Source: Microtetraspora fusca (GTDB taxonomy: Bacteria; Actinomycetota; Actinomycetes; Streptosporangiales; Streptosporangiaceae). Taken from it: a stretch of DNA of 34,603 nucleotides. The stretch lies in contig NZ_BBYK01000088.1 in NCBI RefSeq assembly GCF_001570365.1, forward strand, positions 1 to 34,603, given 5' to 3'. This document shows positions 7,725 through 17,297 of this stretch, in pieces. The notes under the pieces are model-generated. The model saw only the letters and a program-made list of their open reading frames with translations, had not been told where the DNA came from and made no database searches. How positions within the stretch are numbered: position 1 is the first letter of the stretch; every line of letters begins with the position of its first letter. Position numbers and translations under genes: made by a program.

Positions 7725-7830
7725 GGAAGGCCCGATCAAGCTGACATGTTCGGCGTGCCGCGGTCGACGGTGTATGGCCTCGACAAGACCAAGACCGTGC
7801 CCCCGTCAGCCCAAGAAGATCACGGCCTGA
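7725..7830 (+). pseudogene. C-terminal remnant of a serine recombinase (HTH tail), frameshifted
   Basis: One frame reads DMFGVPRSTVYG then LDKTKTVP; a neighbouring frame supplies PRQPKKITA and a stop. Joined, they look like the helix-turn-helix and basic tail that end actinomycete resolvase/invertase-type recombinases. No catalytic domain is present upstream. About 30 codons survive with at least one frameshift. The assignment is motif-based and tentative. Confidence 0.4.
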
Positions 7831-8027
7831 GCATCACAGACAGCTACTTTGCCCCTGTGGACAGAGCTGGGAGTCCGAGGCCATCCCTGAGCCGGAGCAC
7901 CCCCGCTGGAGACGTCCTCGGCAGGTTCTGACCGTGAAGGTAAGTGTGACCGGCGCTGTACCGATGAGTTCGTTGGCGCCATACGATCGGTACCCAAGGC
8001 GCGTAAATCGTCCCTTGAACGGAGAGG

Positions 8028-8315
8028 TTGATCATTGCGGGCTATCTCGAAGTCGACGCTGACCAGCGCGATGCCTTCGTTGCTGCTCACCACGATCTCG
8101 TACGCCGGGCTCGCCAGGCTCCTGGATGTCTCGACCTGGCCATCACTGCCGACCCGCTCGACCCGGCCCGGGTGAACAACTTCGAGCGTTGGGAGTCTCG
8201 GGAACACCTCAACGCCTGGCGAGAGGTCGCTGCGGCTCCCGACGCGGGCATCGCCATCAAGAACGACTATGTGATGGAGTACAGCGTGGCCGACGTACGC
8301 CCAGTTTTCGGCTGA
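8028..8315 (+). CDS. Antibiotic biosynthesis monooxygenase (ABM) domain protein
   Basis: 95 residues, a complete single ABM (dimeric ferredoxin-like) domain. Features are the opening strand IIAGYLEVD, the DAFVAAHHDLVRRARQAPGC helix, DLAITADPLDPARVNNFERW and the closing helix WESREHLNAW. These proteins are small cofactor-free oxygenases or heme-degrading or quinone-active enzymes; the substrate cannot be read here. I use the TTG start at 8028, which makes the protein begin exactly where the family does. GGAGAGG (8021-8027) directly abuts it, so spacing is unusually short. It stands alone, with a recombinase scrap upstream and an MFS scrap downstream. Confidence 0.8.
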   Translation: MIIAGYLEVDADQRDAFVAAHHDLVRRARQAPGCLDLAITADPLDPARVNNFERWESREHLNAWREVAAAPDAGIAIKNDYVMEYSVADVRPVFG

Positions 8316-8512
8316 GGCTGGCTTGTCGGGCGGCGGCGCTGCTCTCCAGGGCCCGGCCACAGCCGGGCATCCGCCAGGTGTCGTTGTCCCCGCGAGGTTC
8401 TGCGCCGAGGGCGGCTTCTCGTCCGCCCGGATATTGTCCTGCGCTGGCATTGCGATCTGCTGATACAGCGTCAGGCCCGCAGCTGTCGCCCGAAGCGGCC
8501 GGACGCCCGCCA

Positions 8513-8785
8513 ATGGCCCGCTCCGTCCGCGCTCTCATTCCGCGTCTGGTCCGGGACGAATCCGTCTTGGGGGATATCCGCGACGGCCGCTACCGGAGGT
8601 ATCCGATCCTCGGCGGCGTGCTCGTCGCAGGCGTTCTCGTGCTCACCTGGCTGGGGGCGAGCACGGGAACGGCTCTGGCATCCGCGCTCACACTGGTCGC
8701 CGGGGTGGGCATGGGACTGCTCACGCAGAGCACCCTGTATGGCGTCGGCATGACGGCCCATGTTCGTGCGGCGGGCATGCCGACG
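8513..8785 (+). pseudogene. Fragment of a DHA2-type MFS transporter
   Basis: The frame contains GRYRRYPILGGVLVAGVLVL, then ALASALTLVAGVGMGLLTQS. This is the loop and two membrane helices in the C-terminal half of drug:H+ antiporters (the family pattern is GRY-x-P-I-x-G ... G-L-G-x-G). The ~10 other helices are absent on both sides, and the frame then runs into antisense of the biotin-carrier gene. It is a remnant or an unrelated two-helix ORF. The end is approximate. Confidence 0.4.
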
Positions 8786-8812
8786 TCCCTCACTTGCCGA
8801 GATCGCGAAGGG

Positions 8813-9028
8813 TCAGGAGATCTCCGCGATCAGATCCCCTTCATCCAGGACGTCACCTTCGCTGATGGGCAGCGTGGTGACGACGCCGGATGTCTCGGCC
8901 TCGACAGGGATCTCCATCTTCATGGATTCGAGGATCACCAGCGTGTCGCCGGCGGCGACGCTGTCCCCCGTGGAGACGAGCACTTTCCAGACGTTGGCCG
9001 CCAGGTCGGACGTGATCTGCTGGCCCAT
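8813..9028 (-). CDS. Biotin carboxyl carrier protein (small, single-domain)
   Basis: 71 residues, consisting only of the biotinyl domain. The carrier motif is ESMKME with Lys37 as the biotinylation site. VSTGDSVAAGD and the mirrored ISEGDVLDEGD give the two-fold hammerhead. Acetyl-CoA carboxylase AccB normally has an extra N-terminal region and thumb that are absent here. AAGGAAAGGAAG, inside the end of the biotin carboxylase gene, is its ribosome binding site; the junction is TGAGATG. As the last gene of the operon, it would shuttle CO2 between the carboxylase and the PxpB/PxpC-like carboxyltransferase. Confidence 0.88.
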   Translation of the reverse strand: MGQQITSDLAANVWKVLVSTGDSVAAGDTLVILESMKMEIPVEAETSGVVTTLPISEGDVLDEGDLIAEIS

Positions 9029-9029
9029 C

Positions 9030-10391
9030 TCAGCTTCCTTTCCTTGGGGTGGCGCGCATCCGCGCGACCAACGCGGTGCAGTACGAGCCGTCGGCGAACT
9101 CGGGCTCGTCGAGGAGTTCGGTGAAGAAGGGCAGGTTCTGCTTCGGACCCGCGATCGTGAAGGCGGCCAGCGCAGCCCGTGCCCTGGCGATCGCGTCCTC
9201 CCGGGTGCCCGCGTGCACGACCAGCTTGGCCATGAGGGAGTCGTACGCGGGGGTGACCCGATTGCCCTGCCTGTAGGCGGCGTCGACGCGGATGCCGTCG
9301 CCGGACGGCTCGTTCCAGGCGTTGATCGTCCCCGGGCCGGGCAGGAACCGCACCGGATCCTCGGCGTTCACGCGGAACTCGATGGCGTGCCCGCGCGGGC
9401 GCAGCGCGGTGAGGTCCACCGACGGCGGCTCGCCCGCCGCGACGCGAAGCTGTTCCTCGACCAGGTCGACGCCCCACACCGCCTCGGTCACCGGGTGCTC
9501 GACCTGCAGTCGCGTGTTCATCTCCAGGAAGACGAACCCTTGGGCGCCCGGTTCGCCGTACACCAGGCACTCGACGGTGCCCGCGTTGCGGTAACCGACG
9601 GCCTTGCCCACCTGCACGGCCGCGGAGAGCATCTGCTCGCGCAGGTCCGGGTCGAGGCAGGGGGACGGGCTCTCCTCGACGAGCTTCTGGTTGCGCCGTT
9701 GCACCGAGCAGTTGCGCTCTCCGAGGGCGATGACGGCACCGTCGGCGAGACCCAGGATCTGCACCTCGATGTGCCGTGCGCCGGCGTAGTAGCGCTCCAG
9801 CAGGATCGCCGGATCGCCGAACAACCGCTCGGCGAATCCGGACACGGCCGCGTACTGCTTGCGCAGGTCGTCCTCGTCGTGGGCGACGGCCATGCCCATG
9901 CCTCCGCCGCCCGCTGCGGCCTTGACCATCAGGGGGTAGCCGATGGTCGCCGCGGCGTCGAGCGCGGCGGCCTCGCCCGCCACCGGCTCCGGGGTGCCGG
10001 GCGCGACCGGGACCCCGGCGGCGGCGACCGCGTTCCGGGCGTTGATCTTGTCGCCCATCAGCTCGATGACGTCCGGCGCGGGACCGACCCAGACCAGCCC
10101 CGCCTCCTGGACGGCGCGGGCGAAGCCGGCGTTCTCCGACAGGAAGCCGTAGCCGGGATGGACGGCCTCGGCGCCGGTACGGTGGGCCGCCGCCAGCACC
10201 CTTTCGGCGTTGCGGTAGGACTCGGCGGGAGCCGCGGGGCCGAGCTCCACCGCCTCATCGGCCTCACGGACGAACGGCAGGTCGGCGTCGGCGTCGCTGT
10301 ATACCGCGATGGTGCGCAGGCCGAGCCGCCGCGCCGTGCGGATGATCCTCCGGGCGATCTCGCCGCGGTTGGCAACCAACAGAGACTCCAT
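9030..10391 (-). CDS. accC: Biotin carboxylase subunit (AccC-like)
   Basis: 453 residues, the usual length for a stand-alone biotin carboxylase: ATP + HCO3- + biotin-carrier to carboxybiotin. The N-terminal domain opens ESLLVANRGEIARRI. The ATP-grasp glycine-rich loop is KAAAGGGGMGM (about 157-167). The active-site signature EMNTRLQVEHPVTE is present, as are the DLVEEQL and HAIEFRVNAEDP motifs. The ATG at 10391 overlaps the PxpA stop (TGATG); a GTG three bases upstream is an alternative start. Despite the accC name, the neighbours are urea-carboxylase/5-oxoprolinase-like carboxyltransferase halves, not acetyl-CoA carboxyltransferase. I infer it charges biotin for that system. Confidence 0.9.
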   Translation of the reverse strand: MESLLVANRGEIARRIIRTARRLGLRTIAVYSDADADLPFVREADEAVELGPAAPAESYRNAERVLAAAHRTGAEAVHPGYGFLSENAGFARAVQEAGLVWVGPAPDVIELMGDKINARNAVAAAGVPVAPGTPEPVAGEAAALDAAATIGYPLMVKAAAGGGGMGMAVAHDEDDLRKQYAAVSGFAERLFGDPAILLERYYAGARHIEVQILGLADGAVIALGERNCSVQRRNQKLVEESPSPCLDPDLREQMLSAAVQVGKAVGYRNAGTVECLVYGEPGAQGFVFLEMNTRLQVEHPVTEAVWGVDLVEEQLRVAAGEPPSVDLTALRPRGHAIEFRVNAEDPVRFLPGPGTINAWNEPSGDGIRVDAAYRQGNRVTPAYDSLMAKLVVHAGTREDAIARARAALAAFTIAGPKQNLPFFTELLDEPEFADGSYCTALVARMRATPRKGS

Positions 10392-11176
10392 CACCGGCGG
10401 CCTCCCTCCGCTGAGCTGCCGAGCAGCACGGCCAGCGGGGCCTGCTCGATCCCGTGGCCGGTCAGCGCCCTGTGCACCGCCTCGGCGATCTCCGGGCCGT
10501 TGGGCGCGTCACCGTGCAGGCACAGGGACACCGCGTCCACGTCGAGTTCGGTGCCGTCGTCGGCGGCGACCTTGCGCTCCAGCACCATGCGGACCGCGCG
10601 GCGGGCGACCAGCTCGGGGTCCCACGCCTTCTTGACCGGCTCGATGACGAGCTTCCCCATGCGGTCGTAGTGCAGGTCGGGGAACGCCTCCACGACCAGC
10701 CGCACCCCTTCGGCGGCCACGGCATCCGCCGTGGCGGAGGTGAGCAGCATCAACGGCAGCGACGCGTCCACCTTGGCCACCGCCCGGGCGATCGCGGCCG
10801 CGACGGCAGGGTCATCCGAGGCCATCACGTACAGCGCGCCGTGCGGTTTGACGTGCGCCAGTCGGCCGCCGGCGGCCCGCACGAACGCCTGCAGGGCGCC
10901 GAGCTGGTAGAGGCAGTAGTCCTCCAGGTCCTCCGCCGGGATCACCATGCGGCGGCGGCCGAAGCCCATCAGGTCGGGGAAGGCCAGGTGCGCGCCGATG
11001 GCCAGCCCATGTCGCACCGCGGCGGCCACTGTGCGCCGGATCGTCGGCGGGTCACCCGCATGGTAGCCGGTGGCGATGTTGACCGAGGTCAGGTACGGCA
11101 TCATGCCGAGGTCGTCGCCGAGGCTCCAGCGGCCGAAGCTCTCGCCCATGTCGCAGTTGAGGTCCACGCGCGGCAT
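10391..11176 (-). CDS. pxpA: LamB/YcsF family 5-oxoprolinase subunit A-like protein
   Basis: 261 residues. It opens with the family signature VDLNCDMGESFGRW, followed by SVNIATGYHAGDP, AHLAFPDLMGFGRR, HVKPHGALYV and CLHGDAPNGPEIA. The latter clusters of His/Asp are the conserved motifs of PxpA, the polysaccharide-deacetylase-like fold partner in PxpABC. In 5-oxoprolinase, PxpA is thought to hydrolyse the activated lactam. The start ATG (11176) overlaps the TGA of the preceding gene. The reading frame is open further upstream but that is antisense noise of the previous gene. Slightly longer than E. coli PxpA (about 244 residues). Confidence 0.9.
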   Translation of the reverse strand: MPRVDLNCDMGESFGRWSLGDDLGMMPYLTSVNIATGYHAGDPPTIRRTVAAAVRHGLAIGAHLAFPDLMGFGRRRMVIPAEDLEDYCLYQLGALQAFVRAAGGRLAHVKPHGALYVMASDDPAVAAAIARAVAKVDASLPLMLLTSATADAVAAEGVRLVVEAFPDLHYDRMGKLVIEPVKKAWDPELVARRAVRMVLERKVAADDGTELDVDAVSLCLHGDAPNGPEIAEAVHRALTGHGIEQAPLAVLLGSSAEGGRR

Positions 11177-12171
11177 CACAGCTCCTCGTAGTGGTGCGGG
11201 TCGGTCGTGTAGTCGACGCGGGCGGCGAGCGCCAGCGCCTCGTCCAGCGACACCTCTCGGAAGCGGATCAGGTCGCGGCCGGGACGGAGCTGGCCGACCT
11301 TCCACAGCCCGGCCTGGACGACGGTGGCGATCACGGTGAAGCCGCCCGCGGTCGGGCCGTCGGGCCCGAGGATGACAGGCACGTCCCCGTTGGTGTTGAT
11401 GCCGCCGATCGGGTAGCTCCCGTCCAGCACGTTGGACGCGTGCCCGCCCGCGACCCCGCCGGACGGCCTGGCCCACTGGAAGCGATGCGACTCCAGCCGG
11501 GTGCCGACGCGGTTGGAGTTGAGGTCGACCTTCCACTCCCGGCCGATCAGATCCTTCCAGTCCTGCTCGGTGAGGAAGTCGGGGTCCGCGTGCGGGCCGC
11601 GCATCACCTCCACCTCCCAGACGTTGGCCAGCGCGGGCCGCAGCGACGCCGGCACACGTAGCCGCGGCGGCGGCGCGGTCACCGGCCGCGCCCGCAGGAC
11701 GTCGCCCTTCACCAGAGCCCGGCCCTCGACGCCGCCGATGCCGCCCATGGTGTAGGTCGCCCGCGACCCCATCACCATCGGGACGTCAATGCCGCCCGCC
11801 ACCGCCAGGTACAGCCGGAACCCCGGCCCCTTGACGATCGAGCAGGTGATCTCGTCCCCGGGCACCACCCGGACGGTCTCGCCCAGCGGCATGGGCGTGG
11901 AGTTCAGCCGGATGCCCGAGCCCTCGGCTCCGGTGACGGCGACCCAGGTCTCGGCAAGGGCGCGCAACGCGAGCCGGCCCATCGGGATCTCCAGCGCGGG
12001 CGCCCCCGGTTCGTTGCCGACCAGCGCGTTGGCGATGCGGAAGGACACGTGGTCCATCGGACCGGAGGGGAAGAAGCCCTTGGACTGCAGGCCGCGACGG
12101 CCGGGGTAGTCCTGGACCAGGGTCTGCAGCCCCGGCATGACGATGTCGAAGACCGCGTGCGTGTCGGTCAT
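11176..12171 (-). CDS. pxpC: Biotin-dependent carboxyltransferase subunit, PxpC/KipA-like (urea-carboxylase type)
   Basis: 331 residues. The N-terminus (VMPGLQTLVQDYPGRRGLQS, then GFFPSGPMDH and RIANALVGN) is the KipA/AHS2 domain. The C-terminal part carries NSNRVGTRLE, WARPSGG, ASNVLDGSYPIGGINTNGD, PVILGPDGPTAGGFT and LWKVGQLRPGR. These read more like the carboxyltransferase domain of urea carboxylase than like ordinary PxpC (which has SDRMGYRL-type sequence). It should pair with the next protein as the two-part active site that moves CO2 from biotin to an amide nitrogen. Start ATG 12171 overlaps the upstream TGA; the stop overlaps pxpA. Confidence 0.88.
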   Translation of the reverse strand: MTDTHAVFDIVMPGLQTLVQDYPGRRGLQSKGFFPSGPMDHVSFRIANALVGNEPGAPALEIPMGRLALRALAETWVAVTGAEGSGIRLNSTPMPLGETVRVVPGDEITCSIVKGPGFRLYLAVAGGIDVPMVMGSRATYTMGGIGGVEGRALVKGDVLRARPVTAPPPRLRVPASLRPALANVWEVEVMRGPHADPDFLTEQDWKDLIGREWKVDLNSNRVGTRLESHRFQWARPSGGVAGGHASNVLDGSYPIGGINTNGDVPVILGPDGPTAGGFTVIATVVQAGLWKVGQLRPGRDLIRFREVSLDEALALAARVDYTTDPHHYEEL

Positions 12172-13133
12172 CACGGCACCTCCGTTCTGGCCGCGGCGGC
12201 CTCGCGGGCGGACCGCAGCGTGTCGGCCTCGGCGCGCACCTCGGCGGCGCGGGCGAGGTAGTCGGTGACCGAGAACTGGTCGTTCTCGATCACGTACTCG
12301 TAGCGGTTCTCCAGGACGTCCCTGCGGGCCGCCAGGAGCTGGTCCTCGCTCACGGGCTCGAAGCGCACCCGGTCGCCCGGGCGAATCAGGATCGGATCGT
12401 CGCGGAACACCTCGTGCCTGGCCAGAATGTCGTAGACGGGTACGGTCCGGCCGAACAGCTGGTAGCCGCCTGGCGCCTCCACTGGGTAGATCGCCACGCA
12501 GGGGCCTCCGATGCCGACCGCCCCCTCCGCCGTCCAGGTGCGGGTCGGGTTGTACTTCGGCACGGTGATGGCGTTGCGCGGATCGAGCGGGAACATGAAC
12601 GGCAGGCCGGGGAAGAAGCCGGTGTACGCGTTCCACCACTCTGTGCCGGTGACCGTCGCGTACAGGGCGTCCCTGCCGGGCAGGCCGTTGTACTCGACGA
12701 TGTAGTCGATGTTGGAGTTGTCGCGGATGTTGGGCGCCTCCTGCCGGATGGTCGTCGTGTAGCGGCGGACCGCTTCGCGACTCTCGGAGTCGTCGAACGC
12801 GATCGGCAGCGTGATCAACCGGCTGGGCAGGACGAGCGAGCGCACCGACCGCTGCGCCAGGTGCGCCTCCTCGACCGCGTCGATGAGCGCCTTACGGTCG
12901 ATGGCGGCGGGTTCGTGGTGCAGCAGCAGTGAGCGGAAGCCCGGCGCGGCCTCTACCAGCCCCGGCACCGGATGCTCGGCGAGATGGGCCGTGACGCCGG
13001 TCACGAAGAAGTTCAACTCCAGGTCGAGCGCCATCTCGCCGTACTCGACGAGGACGTGGCGGTCACCGGCGGCCCGGTAGACGATGGCCGGCCGGTCTCC
13101 TTCGGCCGGACGGCGGGCGATGACGGCGGTCAT
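12171..13133 (-). CDS. pxpB: Carboxyltransferase subunit, PxpB/KipI-like (urea-carboxylase type)
   Basis: 320 residues, about 100 more than ordinary PxpB. I start it at ATG 13133, preceded by GAGGGAGGAACC. Motifs are GDRHVLVEYG near the N-terminus, PIAFDDSES, FFPGLPF, then KYNPTRTWTAEGAVGIGG, AIYPVEAPGGYQLFGRT and RFEPVSEDQL. The KYNP-x-RTW and PGGYQ-x-x-GRT pattern is the one I associate with urea carboxylase; classical KipI/PxpB has RVPAGSVGIGG and PGGW. The C-terminal ~60 residues form a helical extension. It forms the carboxyltransferase with the following gene. No allophanate hydrolase is encoded nearby. Confidence 0.87.
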   Translation of the reverse strand: MTAVIARRPAEGDRPAIVYRAAGDRHVLVEYGEMALDLELNFFVTGVTAHLAEHPVPGLVEAAPGFRSLLLHHEPAAIDRKALIDAVEEAHLAQRSVRSLVLPSRLITLPIAFDDSESREAVRRYTTTIRQEAPNIRDNSNIDYIVEYNGLPGRDALYATVTGTEWWNAYTGFFPGLPFMFPLDPRNAITVPKYNPTRTWTAEGAVGIGGPCVAIYPVEAPGGYQLFGRTVPVYDILARHEVFRDDPILIRPGDRVRFEPVSEDQLLAARRDVLENRYEYVIENDQFSVTDYLARAAEVRAEADTLRSAREAAAARTEVP

Positions 13134-13143
13134 GGTTCCTCCC

Positions 13144-14706
13144 TCAGCGGCTGGCCGGCGCGGTGGCACCGGCCGGAGCGGTCGAGTCGGCGGCGCAGGC
13201 GGAGCAGACGGCGGCTCCCCCCGCGTTCGGGTCGCGGTCCATCTCCACGGCCACGTAGGGCCGGTCGCAGGAGTGGCACCTGATGCGGGCCTCCCAGATG
13301 TCCTCGACCTCGTCTCGCGGGTCCTCCCCGGCAGGCCGTAGGGCGCCGGGAGCGGTGACCAGGGCGGCGTAGTAGAGGCCCGCGGCGACGGCGACGGTGA
13401 TCAGCGGTGCGAGTTGGGCGAGCACGGGGCTGGCCGGCTGCTCGGTGAGCACGATCCCCACGGCGGAGGCCGCGAGCCAGGCCCCGGCGCCCGCGGTCAC
13501 CGGCTTGAGCCGCCGTGGCCGGAACTCGGGCAGGCCGTCACGGTCCGCGCCCCGCACCGCGATGTGCACCATCGCGATCGCGACCCACGCGGTCACGAAG
13601 ACGCCCTGCCAGGCGAGCGCACGCAGCAGGTAGCTCAGCACGTCGGTCAGCATGAACAGGTAGGCGAGCACGCCCGCCACGACGGTCCAGACGGCCCGCG
13701 GCAGCCTCAGCCGGAGCACCCGCGTGGCGAATGCGTCCAGGTTGGTGGAGGCGAGGTAGTAGTTGGCGGTGTTGATCCGCGTCTGGGATACGAAGATCAC
13801 CAGTACGCCGGCGAAGCCCAGCGACCTGATGAACGCGATGACCACACCCGTCTCGGTGCCCGCGATGTCCCAGGCGCGCAGCAGATAGATGCCGATCAGG
13901 CCGTTGACGGCGAAGGTGAAGGCGTAGAAGACCCAGCCGAAGGTGACCGTGCCGTGGAATCTCTGGTCCTCCGCCCGGCCGAAGCGGGCGTAGTCCACGG
14001 TGTACATCATCATGATGTAGACACCCATGTAGATCAGGTAAGCGGTGAGCCAGCCGGGCAGCGGGCCGCTCGGCGTCGCCGACCGAAGCCAGTCCTGTGG
14101 GTAGCCTTGCTGGACCGTCACCGCGATCACCACAGCGACCAAGCCGACCACGTACAGCGGCAGCAGCACGCCGTTGAGCTTGTCCAGCCAGGTCCGCACG
14201 CCGCCGATGACCAGCGGCAGCGCGTACGCCACGACCACGAGGTACCAGATCTCGATGGCGCCGCCGAAGTACTGCTGGAAGGCCACGGCGACGATCGAGC
14301 CTTCGAACACCGCGTAGTACAGCGCGGTCGCGGCGAAGATGAGCGGTGCGAGTGCCGAGCCCAGCATGCCGAACAGCCGCCGCGACAGCAGCGCGACGGT
14401 CAGGCCGGTACGGGCGGCGTACCTGGACAGGACCAGGTTCACGGCTCCGAAGGTGGCCACCGTCAGCACCATGCCGACGATGGTCGCCGGGGTGCCGACG
14501 GCGTCCGCCGCGGCCACGGCGACGTAGAGCCAGAACATGGCCGAGAACAGCGCCCACCAGGCCATGGCGAGCGACCACCGGCCAGATCGCCAGGACCTGG
14601 GCACGACATGGTTCGAGTAGTCCTCGGTGGCGGCCTCCTTGACGACCTTCGGGTCGTCAGTGAAGGAGACCTCCAGCGCCGGGGGGCGGGCGGAGGTGAT
14701 GGACAA
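13144..14706 (-). CDS. NCS1 family permease with C-terminal zinc-ribbon-like tail
   Basis: 520 residues from TTG 14706, chosen because AGGAG lies six bases upstream and the longer frame has no binding site. About twelve membrane spans (about 40-455). The N-terminal DYSNHVVPRSWRSGRWS loop and SQTRINTANYYLASTNLDAF are NCS1 (purine-cytosine/hydantoin/allantoin permease) features. After the last span the cytoplasmic tail contains CHSC (477-480) and CSAC (501-504), a C-x2-C...C-x2-C pair that could bind zinc; such a tail is not part of the standard family. Ten bases separate it from pxpB. It probably imports the nitrogenous ring compound used by the downstream enzymes. Confidence 0.87.
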   Translation of the reverse strand: MSITSARPPALEVSFTDDPKVVKEAATEDYSNHVVPRSWRSGRWSLAMAWWALFSAMFWLYVAVAAADAVGTPATIVGMVLTVATFGAVNLVLSRYAARTGLTVALLSRRLFGMLGSALAPLIFAATALYYAVFEGSIVAVAFQQYFGGAIEIWYLVVVAYALPLVIGGVRTWLDKLNGVLLPLYVVGLVAVVIAVTVQQGYPQDWLRSATPSGPLPGWLTAYLIYMGVYIMMMYTVDYARFGRAEDQRFHGTVTFGWVFYAFTFAVNGLIGIYLLRAWDIAGTETGVVIAFIRSLGFAGVLVIFVSQTRINTANYYLASTNLDAFATRVLRLRLPRAVWTVVAGVLAYLFMLTDVLSYLLRALAWQGVFVTAWVAIAMVHIAVRGADRDGLPEFRPRRLKPVTAGAGAWLAASAVGIVLTEQPASPVLAQLAPLITVAVAAGLYYAALVTAPGALRPAGEDPRDEVEDIWEARIRCHSCDRPYVAVEMDRDPNAGGAAVCSACAADSTAPAGATAPASR

Positions 14707-14835: not shown

Positions 14836-16337
14836 TCACCTGTCTCGTACGGTGAACGCCATCCATAGTTCCGCGCGCAGTCCCGGGTCGGAGAAGCGCC
14901 TCCCCAGCAGCGTCTCGGCGCGTCCGAGCCGGTAGGTGAGTGTCCGGCGGTGGACGCCGAGCGCAGCCGAGGCAGCCTCCGTGTTGCCGTTGTGCGTCAG
15001 GAAGGTGCGCACGGTGCCGAGCAGGTCGGTCCTGCGGGCCTCCTCGCTCTCCAGCGGGGCCAGCATCGCGATCGCCCATCCCTCCGCCTCGGCTGGGCCG
15101 ACGTGCGCCAGCAGCCCGACGTCGGCGACGTCCCTGGTGGTCAGCAATGTGCACGGCGCGGAGGCCGGCACCGTGTCGCGAGCGCGGCCACCCGCGGCCA
15201 GACACGAGCCAGGTCGGTCCATTCGACGGCCGCGCCGATCACGCCCCGGCCGCCGTTGACGGAGCTGAGCACCGACTGCAACACCCCCACGTGCCCCTCC
15301 ACGGCGGGCAGCACCACCACCATGCGGCCCCGCGGATCGCCCGCGACCAGCGCCGACACGATCTGCAGGCTGCGCTCGTTCTCCAGCGCCACCAGCAGGT
15401 CGCCGCGGTGCCCCGGGTCGGCGGTGACGACGGCGATGCGCACGAGCCCCTCAGGCAGCGGGATGCCCAGCGATTCGGCCGCCTGCTCGGCCGCGGCGTA
15501 CCGGCCGGCCAGGACCAGGGCGAGCACCGTCGCCCGCTCTCTGCGTTCGCTGGCGAGCAGCTCCGCCGCCCGCGCGACCTCCAGCGAGAGCAGATCGACG
15601 GCGATGTCGACCACGCCGCGATCGTGCCCGGACAGCGGAGCCGGCCTGCCGACCGCGAGCACGCCCGCGGGCCGAGCCGCCTCGCTCACCGGCAGCAGGG
15701 TGACCCGGGTGTCACCGAGGTCGAACATCGCCGAATGCCAGGAGCGGGTGCGCGAGACCTCCAGCCGCACCCGTTCGGCGTTGCGCCGGGCGTGGTCGGG
15801 AGCGCCCGCGAGCACGTGACCCTCGCGCGAGAGCAGCAGCACCCACGCGTCGAGGTACACGGCCAGGCTGGTGACGATCGAACGGTGCGCGGGAGCCGTC
15901 AGGGCCGCCTTCACCAGGGTCCGGTAGCGCTCCATCGCCGAGGTCTGCGCGGCCCTGTCGGCGGCGGCGATCCCGTCGGTCACGGCGCGCACTACGGAGC
16001 TGAACCGCGTCGGCTCCGACACCTCCACCACGCTCACCCCGAGCCGGTCGGCCGCCTCGATCAGTGTCGGCGGGACGATCGCGTGCCGCAGCCCCACCCC
16101 GAACCCCAGCGCGGGTACTCCCGCGCGCACCAGCTGCTCGACGTACTCGGGCCACTGGCTGCTGGTGCGCCCCAGGCTCAGCCCGGTCGTCAGCAACAGG
16201 GTGCCCTCGTCAAGGTATGGCGTGGGGTCGAGAAGCTCGCTGATGTGCGCCCAGTGCACGATGACGTCGCCGCGCCCGGCGCGCAGGGTCAGGCCGAGAT
16301 CGCGCCTGGCGACCAGACTGGCGAGTGTCTCCGGCAT
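14836..16337 (-). pseudogene. PucR family transcriptional regulator, frameshifted
   Basis: Residues 1-~385 lie in one frame (ATG 16337). The PucR sensing domain opens ASLVARRDLGLTLRAGRGDV and includes LLLTTGLSLG, followed by a GGDEF-like/CdaR middle region ending DLARVWPRVAALA. Near 15175-15190 the coding switches frame: the first frame runs into a stop at 15141, and the second carries DTVPASAPCTLLTTRDVADV and the C-terminal helix-turn-helix (TFLTHNGNTEAASAALGVHR, then RTLTYRLGRAETLLGRRF). One missing base would restore a ~500-residue regulator. No slippery heptamer is evident, so a real mutation or a sequencing error is likelier than programmed shifting. PucR proteins control purine, hydantoin and amino-acid catabolism. 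Confidence 0.82.
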
Positions 16338-16350
16338 CTGCTCAGGCTAG

Positions 16351-16734
16351 TGGCTCGACGACCTGGCCAGACAGGGCCTGCATCCGCAGCACGCCAGCGA
16401 CCAGTTCCACCTGATCGCATCCCAGGCAGGTCTACCGCCGGTGCGGCTGCATGACCTCCGCCATGGTGGCGCCTCACTGATACTCGCCGCCAGGGTGGAG
16501 CTGAAGATCGTTCAGGAGACCTTGGGGCACGTCTCCTCCACCTTTACCCGCGACACGTACACCAGCGTCTATCCGGAAGTCGCGCGGGCGGCGGCTGAGT
16601 CCACCGCCGCGCTACTGGCCACTCACGAGCCCGGCGAGCTTCGCCTCGTCGGCGAAGAGTCACGCTGCTCGACGCCCATCGACGTGATCGACACGGCAGT
16701 GTCCTCAGGGGTACCGATATGCGGCTTGACCTGA
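16351..16734 (+). pseudogene. 3' fragment of a tyrosine recombinase (integrase)
   Basis: An in-frame TAG at 16348 precedes codons reading WLDDLARQGLHPQHASDQFH. The C-terminal catalytic box follows: LHDLRHGGASL (His-x-x-Arg), then LGHVSSTFTRDTYTSV with the final His and the nucleophile Tyr. The arm-binding and core-binding domains and the first catalytic Arg are missing, so it is inactive. Its last ~70 bases form the right copy of the 95-bp direct repeat. It is placed head-on to the pucR start. Confidence 0.75.
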
Positions 16735-16756
16735 CCGGATGATTAATTGGCACCCG
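16662..16756 (+). repeat. Right copy of the ~95-bp direct repeat (matches 4969-5063)
   Basis: Covers the last codons and stop of the recombinase fragment and continues to ATTAATTGGCACCCGCA, where a second recombinase remnant begins. Same orientation as the left copy. See 4969-5063 for the comparison. Confidence 0.7.
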
Positions 16757-17089
16757 CACCGGTCGCGTCCGCGGCCCGCTGTTCCTGGCCCAGCGCCGCC
16801 CCGTCCCGGCCCGCCGCCCCGCACCAGAGCACATCTGCCCGCACACCGGCCGGCCCCGGCTCGGCTACGACCGCGTCCGCGTTCTGATGGAAACCCACCT
16901 CGGCCTCGACCCCCACCAGCTACGCCACTCGGCGGCCACCCGCCTCGGAGAGGCCAAGGTCCCGCTCCAGCTCATCATGGCCAGACCGGCCACAAGAACC
17001 CTCGCACCGCCATGCGCTACACCCGGCCCGGCAGCGAGGCCATCGCCGAGGTCACCGGCATTCTCGCCCCGCCCACACGCACTCACTGA
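16743..17089 (+). pseudogene. 3' fragment of a second tyrosine recombinase, frameshifted
   Basis: Directly after the repeat one frame reads GTRTGRVRGPLFLAQRRPVP, then CPHTGRPRLGYDRVRVLME, DPHQLRHSAATRLGEAKV and PLQLIMA. Around 16980-16990 the similarity jumps frame to KTGHKN-like GHKNPRTAMRYTRPGSEAI and ends at 17089. This is the C-terminal half of a different actinomycete integrase (HQLRHS and GHKNPRTAMRY are the His-x-x-Arg and Tyr boxes). The N-terminal half is missing. The intergenic bases 17090-17297 hold nothing I can support. Confidence 0.72.
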
Positions 17090-17297
17090 CATCCCACGCG
17101 GACCGGGGCGAGCCACCAGCGCCGCAGGCTCGTCCATCCATGATCATCTCTAGCGCGAATTTCTGCACCAATCCTCCAAGCAGTCTCGAAGGCCGAGGGA
17201 AGGGCCTGGACGAACTGCGGGGATGGCCGTGTAGCTGTCGGGATGCCCAGTCATTCGACCGGGATAGGGCAAGCAGTCATCTTGGCAGGTCTCTGCG

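Follow-up and report, generated by a model that had tools for sequence, protein, structure and literature searches.

A split, LamB/YcsF-linked relative of urea carboxylase in Microtetraspora fusca as a candidate biotin-dependent cyclic-amide hydrolase

Two described enzyme systems stand closest to a six-gene cassette on a contig of Microtetraspora fusca, i.e., urea carboxylase/urea amidolyase and the 5-oxoprolinase PxpABC. With the former (Kluyveromyces lactis structures 3VA7 and 5I8I; TIGR02712) the cassette shares four catalytic domain families, a long CT_C_D carboxyltransferase (CT) domain and its best CT sequence and fold matches, but it is built of separate subunits, has LamB/YcsF in place of allophanate hydrolase and carries other fixed CT_C_D residues. 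With PxpABC it shares LamB/YcsF, CT_C_D and CT_A_B, but it adds biotin carboxylase (BC) and biotin carrier genes to the operon, has the long CT_C_D and a LamB without Arg168 and Arg179, and belongs to a separate clade. In Aspergillus nidulans, lamA and lamB reportedly serve the use of 2-pyrrolidinone, yielding gamma-aminobutyric acid (GABA), with a LamB-family protein and a fused urea-amidolyase-like biotin enzyme. The caprolactamases CapAB/OplAB, according to excerpts of two reports, likewise open lactams in an ATP- and bicarbonate-linked reaction, but they are HyuA/HyuB-type proteins without biotin (PMC8453981, PMC11033972). A further set of clusters, here called clade B (e.g., Methylobacterium L141 and Ruegeria L146), shares PxpA, carrier, BC and two CT subunits with the long CT_C_D, but forms a CT clade of its own with support of 100, has Gln at CT_A_B position 259 and mostly retains Arg168 in LamB.

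The window, i.e., the whole stretch of 34,603 nucleotides that was analyzed, is an entire contig (G000:C87) of the 9.0-Mb host genome. Six packed genes, all on the minus strand (8813-14706), encode a transporter, CT_C_D, CT_A_B, LamB/YcsF, BC and the carrier; the junctions read TGATG three times and TGAGATG at the last one, so the packed cluster given in a preliminary description of this DNA is borne out by both open reading frame (ORF) coordinates and sequence. The five enzyme genes are identified by Pfam as well as NCBIfam profiles. We propose, with a probability of roughly 0.6, that the cassette encodes a biotin-dependent cyclic-amide hydrolase along with its regulator and a transporter for its substrate; the enzyme would N-carboxylate a lactam or other cyclic amide and then hydrolyze it through LamB. 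The proposal is based on gene content, gene order, relatedness, conserved residues and neighboring genes, from which we infer the chemical steps, the subunit assembly and the substrate. The features concerned are as follows:

8813..9028, minus strand: biotin carboxyl carrier protein, 71 amino acids (aa), with the biotinylation motif ESMKMEI (PF00364, 67.9 bits; NCBIfam PRK05889, 102.5 bits, cut-off 75)
9030..10391, minus strand: biotin carboxylase subunit, 453 aa (PF00289, PF02786, PF02785), grouping with urea-carboxylase BC domains
10391..11176, minus strand: LamB/YcsF (PxpA homologue), 261 aa, proposed hydrolase of the carboxylated ring (PF03746, 282.8 bits; Leu168/Glu179)
11176..12171, minus strand: CT_A_B carboxyltransferase subunit (PxpC-like), 331 aa (PF02626, 264 bits; urea_carbox, 321 bits; CT trees)
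12171..13133, minus strand: CT_C_D carboxyltransferase subunit (PxpB-like, long form), 320 aa (PF02682, 139.6 bits; urea_carbox, 268 bits)
13144..14706, minus strand: membrane transporter, 520 aa, TTG start, distant relative of cytosine permease (NCS1) (PRK11017, 26.6 bits)
14836..15222, minus strand: PucR-type regulator, C-terminal helix-turn-helix part, in a different frame from the next (PF13556, 67.1 bits)
15141..16337, minus strand: the same PucR-type regulator gene, N-terminal part (PF07905, 81.3 bits)

In the proposed sequence of events, the transporter would import a small ring amide and BC would use ATP and bicarbonate to carboxylate the biotin on the 71-aa carrier. CT_C_D and CT_A_B would move this carboxyl group onto the nitrogen of the ring amide, a step modelled on urea carboxylase, where such chemistry is established, and so produce an activated ring. 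Hydrolysis of the carboxylated ring by LamB/YcsF would leave a carbamate, which would lose CO2 to give the free amino acid while bicarbonate is regenerated.

The CT subunits place the cassette beside urea carboxylase. Against the NCBIfam urea_carbox profile CT_C_D scored 268 bits and CT_A_B 321 bits, compared with 65 for PxpB and 158 for PxpC, whose cut-offs were both missed (TIGR00370, 64.7 bits, cut-off 145.55; NF045499, 158.5 bits, cut-off 500). BC, carrier and CT domains lie on four separate ORFs, not on one chain, and these scored 512, 321, 268 and 63 bits against urea_carbox without reaching its whole-chain cut-off of 1303.85. The best solved relatives of both CT subunits are the K. lactis enzymes (3VA7, 5I8I), aligned near full length; 3VA7 covered CT_C_D residues 5-296, while E. 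coli YbgJ covered 164-263 only. A predicted CT_A_B structure (mean predicted local distance difference test (pLDDT) score 74.6) matched 5I8I and 3VA7 best in Foldseek, followed by E. coli YbgJK. The CT_C_D domain of 309 aa is within the urea-carboxylase range, compared with 206-248 aa in the group of short-PxpB systems. Four motifs had previously been quoted as typical of urea carboxylase (KYNPTRTW, PGGYQLFGRT, NSNRVGTRL and DGPTAGGFT), and all are found in the window proteins. KYNPxRxW and DGPxxGGF are indeed common to the window CT and urea carboxylase and not to PxpBC, whereas the NSNRVGTRL region is weakly diagnostic, with near versions such as SNRVGIRL in PxpC.

CT trees of 78 and 90 tips were calculated from concatenated CT domains, with the short-PxpB group as root. 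From the genome_contigs set one fused carboxylase in four was used (15 tips), which brought the fused tips to 27, and L213, from the same contig as L071, was kept as a tip of the 90-tip tree and dropped from the counts. Short PxpB-type systems lie on one side, and the long-CT_C_D systems (support 100) divide into clade B (100) and a clade of split and fused systems. In the 78-tip tree the split clade has support of 100, the fused clade 100 and the joint clade 98. In the 90-tip tree the window falls among the split LamB-linked systems, whose clade (94, core 100) is the sister of the fused urea/guanidine carboxylases (100), the two being joined at 89; the lower support goes with the long branch (0.64) of the added L206-L211 lineage. 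The claim that the CT is urea-carboxylase-like rather than PxpBC-like therefore holds in the profile scores and in both trees, and the suggested phylogenetic check placed the CT outside PxpBC and sister to the fused carboxylases. The companion idea that the enzyme was split in this lineage was revised, because rooting on the short-PxpB group makes the split state look ancestral. Given this root and the occurrence of LamB also with PxpBC and clade B, it is more economical to regard the split LamB-linked state as ancestral and the fused urea carboxylase as derived.

Single residues separate the split systems from urea carboxylase as well. Fixed differences are found at CT_C_D positions 41, 144, 173, 175, 177, 192, 212 and 217 and at CT_A_B 249, and at CT_C_D 173, 175, 192 and 217 the 32 split tips retain the PxpB-majority residue, from which urea carboxylases differ. 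According to the published text available in part, Asn (urea) or Asp (guanidine) is a CT specificity determinant (PMC12186494), which by our own position mapping we equated with CT_A_B 259. The window, group III and L206-L211 have Asn at this position. Clade B and PxpC have Gln, and group II has Leu, Ile or Val and may for that reason act on another substrate.

The partner genes were compared between 41 split-clade loci and 67 fused loci, in which one chain carries both CT_A_B and CT_C_D; the mean lengths were 16.2 and 15.9 kb. L056, L057 and L058 (the same as loci L035, L037 and L038) were removed before the domain scans, and fused-looking frames of 1230, 1208, 640 and 641 aa in G614, G749, G957 and G1027 were left out of the sample. 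All 67 fused loci were counted, their mutual independence being unchecked; since Fisher p values take no account of common ancestry, the contrasts were judged by counts and by the number of lineages. LamB/YcsF accompanied 37/41 split and 0/67 fused loci and allophanate hydrolase 0/41 and 42/67, so that these two genes mark the two sides. UAAP1 (0/41 vs. 49/67) and UAAP2 (0/41 vs. 53/67) were confined to the fused loci, PucR (22/41 vs. 0/67) and ABC permease (11/41 vs. 0/67) to the split ones; BC occurred in 24/41 split and 63/67 fused loci and the carrier in 28/41 and 60/67. BLAST with two AtzF references did not find allophanate hydrolase in the window. The co-occurrence survey thus agrees with the earlier proposal of a split system using LamB/YcsF instead of allophanate hydrolase, and the cassette itself, with its separate ORFs, fits the same description.

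Seven loci (the window, L034, L035, L036, L037, L054 and L055), here group I, share the order CT_C_D-CT_A_B-LamB-BC-carrier behind PucR. The five-enzyme order is identical in all of them, six being from other genomes, and five of the seven have the transporter; this recurrence indicates that the cassette is more than a chance assembly. The enzyme proteins of L034 are 97% identical to those of the window, and the strong similarity spans the cassette (~8.75-16.35 kb) and stops before the compared L034 flanks. Within the host's order, matches at E <= 1e-80 were obtained in 9/345 genomes with the host counted, and three other genomes of the host's genus among those listed had no match at this limit. 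Horizontal transfer of the cassette is likely. Directly upstream (16441-17153), two tyrosine-integrase C-terminal-like fragments scored 25.4 and 20.5 bits, below the Pfam cut-off of 27.1, and represent a possible trace of cassette insertion.

The LamB/YcsF protein is a regular family member (PF03746, cut-off 22, reached) and keeps all 27 positions that are near-invariant among 39 sequences. Two positions set the split-linked proteins apart. Residue 168 is Arg in 9/9 LamBs from short-PxpB or LamB-only loci and Leu in 28/28 split-linked ones, and at residue 179 all nine PxpA-type proteins have Arg, whereas 22 of the split-linked ones have Glu and six have Thr, the window having Leu168/Glu179 in place of Arg/Arg. 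Seven further group II LamBs, distant from the window-type CT pair, have Leu168/Thr179, and clade B has Arg168 in five and Thr179 in all of six distinct loci. These counts omit the truncated LamBs L067 and L073, and the seven clade B rows represent six loci since L172 repeats L052. A substrate that lacks the carboxylate of 5-oxoproline would be in keeping with these two lost positive charges.

Biotin dependence is suggested by the cassette itself and by its neighborhood. The window BC is identical to E. coli AccC at 13 of 14 compared positions, which we take to be the active-site region. The sequence marks of biotin-dependent carboxylases are present, namely active-site residues in the BC domains and the biotinyl-lysine motif in the carrier. 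In the BC tree, group I BCs neighbor the BC domains of fused urea-carboxylase-type enzymes (joining node 100), and those of L072 and L084 fall in another group. BioY, for biotin uptake, occurs in 6/41 split loci on the same strand as CT and 0.9-2.5 kb away (by Pfam in L054, annotation in L135 and BLAST in the other four); it follows the carrier in 5/7 group I loci and is the last gene of the Thermomicrobium operon (L135). BioB, for biotin synthesis, was identified in 4/41 split loci (above the NCBIfam cut-off in L075, L212 and L214, by BLAST in L077). Its distance from CT is 1.0-6.4 kb, and in three of the four it lies on the opposite strand; L212 also has BioA. Altogether, BioY or BioB was near 10/41 split and 2/67 fused loci (L125, L127), and biotin dependence of the split system is supported by these neighbors. 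The clade B locus L174 has BioY too, in Bradyrhizobium and Shinella BC and carrier genes adjoin short-PxpB systems, and PDB entry 9YX5, judged by its chain names alone, lists the biotin carboxylase AccA3 together with chains of the short PxpBC type ('allophanate hydrolase subunit 1/2').

Clues to the substrate come from other split lineages. With a limit of 45% identity to the L075 protein, a GABA transaminase was present in 7/41 split and 0/67 fused loci, and all six scanned proteins exceeded the TIGR00700 cut-off of 506.65 (L075 at 565.8 bits; L206, L207, L209, L210 and L211 at 555-578); the one in L077 is 84% identical to that of L075. In L075 and L077 the gene lies 4 kb upstream on the same strand. 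The loci L206-L211, chosen by their CT gene after the L075 observation, served as a fresh check of this link, and in five of the six, all but L208, the transaminase gene separates LamB from the CT genes, the distance to CT being 62-83 nt in alignment coordinates. The aldehyde dehydrogenases of L084 and L076 have succinate-semialdehyde dehydrogenase and alpha-ketoglutaric semialdehyde dehydrogenase, respectively, as best matches, both below the cut-off. GABA transaminases together with semialdehyde-dehydrogenase-like genes point to an omega-amino acid as product, most simply GABA, and therefore to 2-pyrrolidinone. Where the GABA transaminase is embedded in the cluster, 2-pyrrolidinone (gamma-butyrolactam) is thus the most likely substrate and GABA the product, and for the window's lineage either this compound or a comparable neutral lactam or cyclic amide is probable; the host has a GABA transaminase over the cut-off elsewhere in its genome (609 bits). 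Of the ring amides named initially (oxoproline, hydantoin or another lactam), ring-amide chemistry as such remains the best fit, but 5-oxoproline is an unlikely substrate, because the host has a separate PxpABC-type locus elsewhere in its genome and the two PxpA arginines are lost. GABA-transaminase-like BLAST matches in L041, L072 and L212 were discounted, being 29-32% identical, with L041 and L072 matching other class-III aminotransferases best and that of L212 being BioA; an amidase match in L072 (30%) fell outside the limits used for the partner counts.

If both lines of evidence are followed to the end, the cassette would be a biotin-dependent gamma-lactamase, converting 2-pyrrolidinone or a near analogue to GABA via LamB, and at the same time an ancestral form of the fused urea/guanidine carboxylases, which would have arisen when the genes fused and allophanate hydrolase took the place of LamB. 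We offer this combined reading tentatively, as somewhat more probably wrong than right.

Several observations speak against a cyclic-amide hydrolase or weaken its support. In none of the seven group I loci was a GABA transaminase or BioB found; the window and L034 lack a BioY gene, although the host has two BioY elsewhere in its genome. Cut-offs of other GABA-transaminase equivalog models were not reached, looser limits gave a weaker GABA-transaminase-like match in two fused loci (L098, L125), and the two fused loci with a biotin gene carry BioB by BLAST. The clade B locus L174 combines GABA transaminase and BioY yet keeps Arg168. BC and carrier genes accompany some clade B and short-PxpB systems too, so the biotin association is not specific to the split clade. 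Within that clade the limited presence of BC and carrier is explained by contig ends in some loci, but BC is missing as well from L135 and from several group II loci whose flanks measure 9 kb. Split loci without LamB (L059, L060, L062, L212) all reach a contig end except L062, which lacks it despite 9-kb flanks, and eight group II loci (L063-L070) have LamB at a distance of 5-8 kb from the CT pair of the window type, either next to another CT pair, of clade B, or where the stretch ends. In L206-L211, CT_C_D residues 177 and 217 deviate, while 173, 175 and 192 are kept, and the window BC has Asn at position 236, where E. coli has His. The PucR-type regulator of the window is divided between two frames, and the identity of the permease is weak.

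Among the alternatives, the one that survives best has the window's lineage acting not on a simple lactam but on a cyclic ureide or amide that resembles hydantoin, dihydropyrimidine or creatinine. It is a live alternative because the ABC transporter of the GABA-transaminase lineages is replaced here by a cytosine-permease-like transporter and a PucR-type regulator, and the failure to find a GABA transaminase in group I agrees with it. We nevertheless regard it as unlikely, since the CT loop of the window (FFPGLPFMFPLDPR) nearly equals that of the GABA-transaminase-linked L075 (FWPGLPFMFPLDPR), the loop of L206-L211 differing more, and the common hydantoinases and creatininase are generally known to work without carboxylation.

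A diverged 5-oxoprolinase that recruited biotin genes and still acts on 5-oxoproline would account for LamB/YcsF with both CT families, for the PxpB-majority residues at four CT_C_D positions and for the BC and carrier genes of some short-PxpB clusters; the CT grouping with urea carboxylase, the length of CT_C_D, the lost LamB arginines and the host's own PxpABC-type locus make it very improbable, and an ordinary PxpABC was rejected on trees, profile cut-offs and partners. A split urea or guanidine carboxylase, with the allophanate or carboxyguanidine step performed elsewhere or by LamB, likewise has a low probability: its closest CT and BC relatives are urea carboxylases and CT_A_B 259 is Asn as in these (by the rule in the partly available PMC12186494 and our own mapping), but the absence, at the limits used for the partner counts, of allophanate hydrolase, UAAP1 and UAAP2 from all 41 split loci, the fixed differences in CT_C_D and at CT_A_B 249 and the Leu/Ile/Val at 259 in group II disagree with it. 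A true urea carboxylase was dismissed, as the CT is sister to and not within the fused clade, the profile cut-off was missed and the partners differ.

The preliminary description regarded the system as undescribed. This stands for the function, as no paper recognized as describing LamB/YcsF with biotin carboxylase was found in a search of CC-licensed literature, in which the slash spelling LamB/YcsF is unsearchable; the architecture is not unique, since five-gene clusters of PxpA, carrier, BC and two CT genes occur elsewhere and are visible in annotation. NCBI already names PxpC-like CT_A_B subunits, those of short-PxpB systems included, 'biotin-dependent carboxyltransferase family protein'. 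If the cyclic-amide hydrolase is real, biotin-dependent carboxylation would be a general way to activate stable cyclic amides, PxpABC-like clusters carrying biotin genes would gain a chemical role and the origin of urea carboxylase from a 5-oxoprolinase-like machine would be explained. It could also provide candidate enzymes for gamma-butyrolactam, the nylon-4 monomer, on which OplAB had only trace activity according to an excerpt of the 2023 report (PMC11033972).

The transporter gene itself was confirmed, while its labelling as an NCS1 permease is only weakly backed. Its sole NCBIfam match is the cytosine permease PRK11017 (E 2.4e-6; cut-off of 326 not reached), no Pfam match was obtained at a limit of E 10, a comparison with PDB gave no meaningful match, and the AlphaFold model has a mean pLDDT of 39.9. 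A C-terminal CxxC...CxxC tail (13195-13278) is conserved in 5/5 aligned copies and has a zinc-ribbon look. The PucR-type regulator gene (14836-16337), split over two overlapping frames, corresponds to a single 500-aa ORF in the near-identical L034, so either a sequencing error or a broken regulator is in question.

A second BC of the host, 69% identical, lies beside a small carrier gene on contig C82 (L171, ~7801-9416 and 13799-14503); no CT gene was found in this stretch, a nearby ORF looks like an extracytoplasmic-function (ECF) sigma factor by eye, and the neighborhood presumably resembles that of mycobacterial TB7.3. In some actinomycetes (L038, L039, L040, L061, L063, L064, L066) window-clade and clade B CT pairs are adjacent, the stretch covered having one LamB and no more than one BC/carrier set, and the two carboxyltransferases possibly share one biotin carboxylase. 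Another biotin-linked PxpABC form is seen on Klebsiella and Paracoccus plasmids (L139, L149), with an NRAMP-type transporter, PxpA, a 'putative hydro-lyase', a fused short PxpB-PxpC and BC/carrier. HyuA/HyuB-type genes stand beside L072 and L084 and were kept out of the model. Genes for xanthine-dehydrogenase-type molybdenum hydroxylases adjoin LamB-linked carboxylases in Thermomicrobium (L135:891-3741) and in two actinobacterial genomes (L052:11729-14092, L174:11317-13653), and such hydroxylases could make the lactam from an N-heterocycle.

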